Below, one piece after another: positions 25,325-64,000 of a stretch of 64,000 bases of DNA. The notes beneath the pieces are model-generated. The model saw only the letters and a list, made by a program, of their open reading frames with translations. It was not told the origin of the DNA and did not search any database. The stretch spans positions 1,698,501 through 1,762,500 of the forward strand of contig CM055897.1 of the NCBI GenBank assembly GCA_029582155.1. The letters are read 5' to 3'. The DNA is from Panopea generosa. Its lineage: Eukaryota > Mollusca > Bivalvia > Adapedonta > Hiatellidae. The first letter of the stretch is position 1. The number at the start of each line of letters is the position of its first letter. The position numbers and the translations under genes were made by a program.

Positions 25325-64000
<38,676 letters not shown>

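Follow-up and report, generated by a model that had tools for sequence, protein, structure and literature searches.

A frame-preserving 27-nt stretch in the longest resolved intron of a Panopea generosa dynein-1 heavy chain gene is most likely a chance pseudo-exon

The dynein-1 heavy chain gene and its exon model

Open reading frames of a dynein-1 heavy chain run on the + strand from ~25.3 kb to the end of the window, by which we mean the whole 64,000-nt stretch of Panopea generosa DNA that was analysed. From 28.5 kb onward the gene was resolved into 40 exons, of which the two outermost are incomplete, separated by 39 GT-AG introns; an exon join was accepted where the frame stayed open across it and agreed with the joined translation. 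This model begins downstream of the first coding exon (~25.3 kb), and an open stretch at 39345-39491 that gave no alignment to dynein was left out of it. The joined coding sequence is free of stops over 2,260 codons, and in its tail and AAA1 parts the translation was compared with solved dynein chains. A Pfam search assigns the AAA1 segment to AAA_6; among solved structures, cytoplasmic dynein 1 heavy chain 1 is the best match both for the AAA1 query (E 6.7e-69) and for two longer tail queries (E 0). By these tail and AAA1 matches, the predicted gene is a cytoplasmic dynein-1 heavy chain. The features discussed below are collected in Table 1.

Table 1. Features of the AAA1 region of the dynein-1 heavy chain gene, in window coordinates.
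Feature	Coordinates	Strand	Remarks
Upstream coding exon (AMGRIFVG...SAAGRKDK+G)	51158..51320	+	Encodes the Walker-B segment of AAA1 and the helix after it; phase 1 at its end
Host intron	51321..58745	+	Phase 1; at 7,425 nt longer than each of the 38 other resolved introns
AG-free stretch before the candidate acceptor	53133..53240	+	108 nt; might hold a distant branch point; includes pyrimidine runs at 53142-53164
Candidate 27-nt exon (VPDVKKKKK)	53243..53269	+	Letters TACCAGATGTCAAAAAAAAGAAGAAGG; most likely an unused pseudo-exon
Nested 21-nt alternative (DVKKKKK)	53249..53269	+	Uses a CAG inside the candidate as acceptor; lacks the AG-free zone
Probable transposable insertion	54402..56287	.	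1,886 nt; 32-nt perfectly complementary ends with 1,822 nt between them
Downstream coding exon	58746..58986	+	Encodes the PS-I hairpin and sensor I; phase 1 at its start

A 27-nt candidate exon in a long intron

A first-pass annotation had proposed that 27 nt within the longest of these introns form an in-frame microexon. Its account of the letters was accurate: the stretch is 27 nt long, is preceded by TACTAG and followed by GTATGAGT, and lies between exon ends at 51320 and 58746. Being a multiple of three and stop-free in the host frame, it does read VPDVKKKKK when joined. The phase agreement that had been offered in its favour (phase 1 in and phase 1 out) is also real, but it carries no weight as independent evidence, because any insert of a length divisible by three keeps the phase.

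The candidate had further been described as sitting alone in a 7.4-kb intron. This holds as far as exons are concerned, but some of the 7.4 kb is taken up by an apparent 1,886-nt element whose 32-nt inverted ends match perfectly. The element has a run of 21 G at the inner edge of its left end, and no target-site duplication was seen in the inspected flanks. Another part of the intron, 51678-51874, is a copy of a dispersed repeat also found at 49383-49593; the two copies are ~88% identical, contain a 67-nt near-palindrome and flank the AAA1 exon in neighbouring introns. Since the element looks inserted and 51678-51874 is dispersed repeat, the length of the host intron alone is no hint of a hidden exon. 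Over the candidate itself there is no repeat among the families found in the window.

Just downstream of the candidate, at 53294-53314, TACTAAC followed by TTCAG makes what is, by eye, a textbook-like branch point and acceptor; an exon opened at this acceptor would run into an immediate stop in the host frame.

The site in the AAA1 module

The insert had been placed between Walker B and sensor I of AAA1, and our alignment bears this out: the join lies between FDEFNR (Walker B) and ITMNPG (sensor I), within the loop that immediately precedes the PS-I hairpin. When the two flanking exons are joined directly, 134 of 134 residues align, gap-free and at 83% identity, with positions 1940-2073 of dynein-1 chains 4,646 residues long. 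Because the skipping form matches a solved dynein-1 chain in this way, an extra exon is not needed.

The corresponding stretch is shorter in other dyneins, with 125 chain residues for 134 in Dictyostelium dynein-1, 127 for 134 in dynein-2 and 122 for 132 in yeast (the chains 5nug_A, 3vkg and 4ai6 being, we presume, human, Dictyostelium and yeast). Pieces of dynein heavy chain also turned up in prokaryote bins, at 16 loci (L001-L016) that are at most 66% identical in their best segment and come from sources including rumen and pond samples; presumably they represent eukaryote (protist) contamination of bacterial bins. All five of these 16 loci that we aligned have a ten-column gap on the AAA1 loop, one of them (L009) with an extra residue just after it. 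The loop is 7-10 residues shorter in dynein-2, other solved dyneins and the five prokaryote-bin loci. A loop that varies in length would tolerate a change of length, which makes an insertion possible without arguing for one. Viral contigs gave 10 pattern matches to dynein, none of them a relative, and an exact 26-nt search of them found no match.

The AAA1 PS-I hairpin follows the motif hydrophobic-x-hydrophobic-x-G-x-x-hydrophobic-x-hydrophobic in section 3.3.1 of PMC4047620, and the start of the downstream exon fits this motif by eye. A contact of the insert with the linker, as first suggested, is disfavoured: according to that source, contact with the linker is made by the AAA2 inserts, and cytoplasmic dyneins do not conserve the exposed surface of the AAA1 PS-I insert. 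The one potential contact of the AAA1 hairpin described in section 3.3.1 is a residue close to AAA6 in some axonemal families.

Splice sites scored against chance

We built position weight matrices (PWMs) from the 38 other introns of the gene, in a full version and a version with intronic bases only, and ranked the candidate among the 250 stop-free, in-frame AG...GT pairs of 6-60 nt in the host intron. Chance was modelled by dinucleotide-preserving shuffles and by order-3 Markov introns. At 5.6 bits the candidate donor outscores 5 of the 38 other real donors, and the candidate acceptor, with 1.3 bits, outscores 2 of 38 real acceptors; the donor of the preceding exon is strong (8.9 bits, above 24 of 38). 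On splice score alone the candidate stands 15th of 250, and at least one equal appeared in each of 100 shuffles (mean 12.0) and each of 300 order-3 Markov introns (mean 13.9). The splice sites of the candidate are not better than chance within the host intron.

Splicing might instead use a different exon of this intron, whether cryptic or regulated. Examples are the nested 21-nt alternative, whose acceptor scores 4.71 bits against 1.30 for the candidate, and a 12-nt stretch at 54154-54165 (VVFSS) with better splice sites. By splice score these rank 6th and 2nd of 250 respectively, and 54154-54165 moves to first place once the AG-free zone (see below) is added. The scores nevertheless fall within the range of the shuffles (14.6 bits, where the best of each shuffle has a median of 13.5 and a 95% point of 17.1), and the remaining terms count against both stretches, with -3.3 bits for coding at 54154-54165 and -6 bits for the AG-free zone at 53249-53269. 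We regard the use of such an exon as very improbable. This grade, like those given to the other readings, is a matter of judgement.

The AG-free zone, codon content and combined score

The AG-free stretch ahead of the candidate acceptor is 108 nt long, where exons with a distant branch point have an AG exclusion zone of at least 100 nt. Zones of at least 105 nt precede two of the 331 AGs in the host intron and four of the 1,366 AGs in all introns, the candidate being counted in both, and one of the 39 real acceptors. The term for this zone was added to the score post hoc, after the zone had been noticed; with splice score and zone together the candidate ranks 5th of 250, and an equal was found in 98.5% of 200 shuffles.

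The ten codons of the candidate amount to 5.35 bits for coding versus intron, a value reached by 1.05% of 12,953 overlapping stop-free 10-codon stretches of intron. Within this score three AAG codons contribute +4.5 and two AAA codons -1.9, all in one purine run. By codons alone the candidate is 7th of 250, with an equal in 59.3% of Markov introns. When codons are combined with the splice sites and the AG-free zone is left aside, it comes first with the intronic-only PWM (equal in 25.7% of Markov introns) and fourth with the full PWM (equal in 72.3%).

With all terms counted (sites, codons and AG-free zone) the candidate is first of 250. An equal then arose in 4% of 200 shuffles and 6.3% of 300 order-3 Markov introns with the intronic-only PWM, and in 32.5% and 31% respectively with the full PWM. 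Real non-coding DNA of the window was scored as well: 645 pairs from the other 38 introns, 607 from the reverse strand of introns and 1,328 from upstream DNA. The score of the candidate was reached by 0, 0 and 2 of these, respectively, with the intronic-only PWM, and by 1, 1 and 3 with the full PWM. The candidate is the best-looking of its intron when every term is included, yet it is indistinguishable from chance.

We therefore consider it highly probable that 53243-53269 is a chance pseudo-exon, because the form that skips it is intact and has the length usual for dynein-1, and because chance should yield equal look-alikes as far as splice signals go. In a long AT-rich intron a stop-free, purine-rich run would by chance have an AG and a GT on either side, spaced by a multiple of three, and the spliceosome would join 51320 directly to 58746 to give the canonical dynein-1 loop. 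Any inclusion of the 27 nt would then be rare noise, and we infer that regulated inclusion does not occur. The main lesson is that a long AT-rich intron easily yields frame-preserving look-alikes of microexons, here 250 pairs in one intron.

Branch point, pyrimidines and RNA fold

Between -125 and -5 of the candidate acceptor, yUnAy matches occur only at -104, -92, -85, -77 and -9. Because the matches are confined to -104 to -77 and -9, a branch point of the candidate, if there is any, would be distant. As a discriminator this motif proved of little power and was set aside: it is present in -50 to -15 at 30 of 39 real acceptors and at 212 of 328 other AGs of the host intron. A near match is absent, as at the candidate, from 9 of the 39 and 116 of the 328, and its absence accordingly says little in favour of a microexon. 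The pyrimidine share from -20 to -4 is 0.65, which is ordinary for the gene. Runs of at least six pyrimidines lie at about -101 to -79, with none nearer, and the nearest UGC is at -42.

A hairpin around the acceptor, seen by eye as a 9-bp pairing of TTTTGACAT with ATGTCAAAA, was tried as a further signal and rejected (fold z-score -0.95, with 35 of 200 shuffles folding as well or better). No Rfam family reached its gathering threshold in 51000-59200.

These properties bear on the reading that the candidate is a real, regulated cassette microexon. Its branch point would lie at about 53136-53160, at the 5' end of the 108-nt AG-free zone with its pyrimidine runs, and would be active in some tissue, while the GAAGAAG run could serve as an exonic enhancer. 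With VPDVKKKKK included, the loop before the AAA1 PS-I hairpin would be longer, an exposed side of AAA1 would gain five positive charges, and the insert might tune the rate of the motor or its contact with a partner. Consistent with this are the first rank of 250 once the codon and AG-free-zone terms are included, the AG-free zone itself together with a placement of yUnAy that implies a distant branch point, the ordinary pyrimidine share, the strong upstream donor and the varying length of the AAA1 loop among dyneins. Under the scoring that suits it best, the candidate is equalled in only 4-6% of simulated introns, but across the scorings that include the favourable terms the share is 4-33%, and the acceptor is weak, with no UGC nearer than -42. 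On balance we think a regulated microexon unlikely. The fuller proposal, that a lineage-specific cassette microexon spliced via a distant branch point sets a five-lysine insert ahead of the AAA1 PS-I hairpin, so that splicing, besides adaptors and Lis1, tunes the main ATPase site, seems to us more doubtful still.

Comparison with known alternative exons

The closest precedent for optional basic exons comes from dynactin. Exons 5-7 of dynactin1 (p150Glued), like short exons in dynactin2 and dynactin4 (PMC3583065), resemble the candidate in adding few residues (basic ones in dynactin1) to the dynein transport machinery, which is in favour of a microexon. The dynactin exons, however, have cDNA support and vertebrate-wide conservation and belong to dynactin, whereas the candidate is known from DNA letters and would lie in the ATPase ring of the motor.

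Alternative splicing of dynein-1 as such is known from Schistosoma and flies. A mutually exclusive exon has been proposed in DHC1 of Schistosoma mansoni (PMC3228551), likewise a cytoplasmic dynein-1 heavy chain gene, and in two Drosophila species the embryos contain multiple spliced isoforms of Dhc64C, the fly dynein-1 heavy chain (PMC5147784). The Schistosoma case involves two homologous exons of equal length, whereas the candidate has neither a second copy (40 exons compared with the introns) nor a known homologue. In a tblastn comparison of all 40 exons with the window nothing matched outside the exons at E 0.01, and exon duplication or a mutually exclusive exon was rejected as an explanation, the introns holding no homologous neighbour exon.

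With the neural eMIC/SRRM-dependent microexons (PMC8797185) the candidate has in common that it is short and frame-preserving, with weak sites, a strong upstream donor and a long AG-free zone. Unlike them, it lacks a UGC near the acceptor (the nearest at -42) and has pyrimidine runs of at least six only at -101 to -79. In flies, the exons that depend on eMIC combine weak splice sites with a strong donor upstream (PMC8797185), and according to PMC1431707 exons behind long AG-free zones are more often alternatively spliced; weak sites therefore do not exclude the candidate. The distant-branch-point exons of the latter source share with it an AG-free zone of at least 100 nt and a pyrimidine run at the upstream end. 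By the estimate in PMC1431707, only one-fifth to one-half of such long zones have a distant branch point.

Titles and abstract openings of the open-access literature yielded no report of a microexon in a dynein heavy chain or DYNC1H1, nor, among microexon work on mollusc, oyster and octopus, any on the dynein heavy chain gene; this lack of a published record also counts against a microexon. If the candidate were used, splicing would give an animal variant forms of the AAA1 ATPase module in its general-purpose dynein; the same titles and abstract openings gave no report of this.

Other repeats in the window

Elsewhere in the gene, an intronic repeat at 43984-44130 starts 16 nt past the end of a dynein exon and comprises seven copies of a 21-nt unit with 96% matches; it is nearly or wholly open in all three + frames. 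At 7812-10103 the + strand encodes two enzymes in succession, a reverse transcriptase (Pfam RVT_1) and then a tyrosine recombinase (Pfam Phage_integrase); from its looks we take this element to be a DIRS-type retrotransposon.
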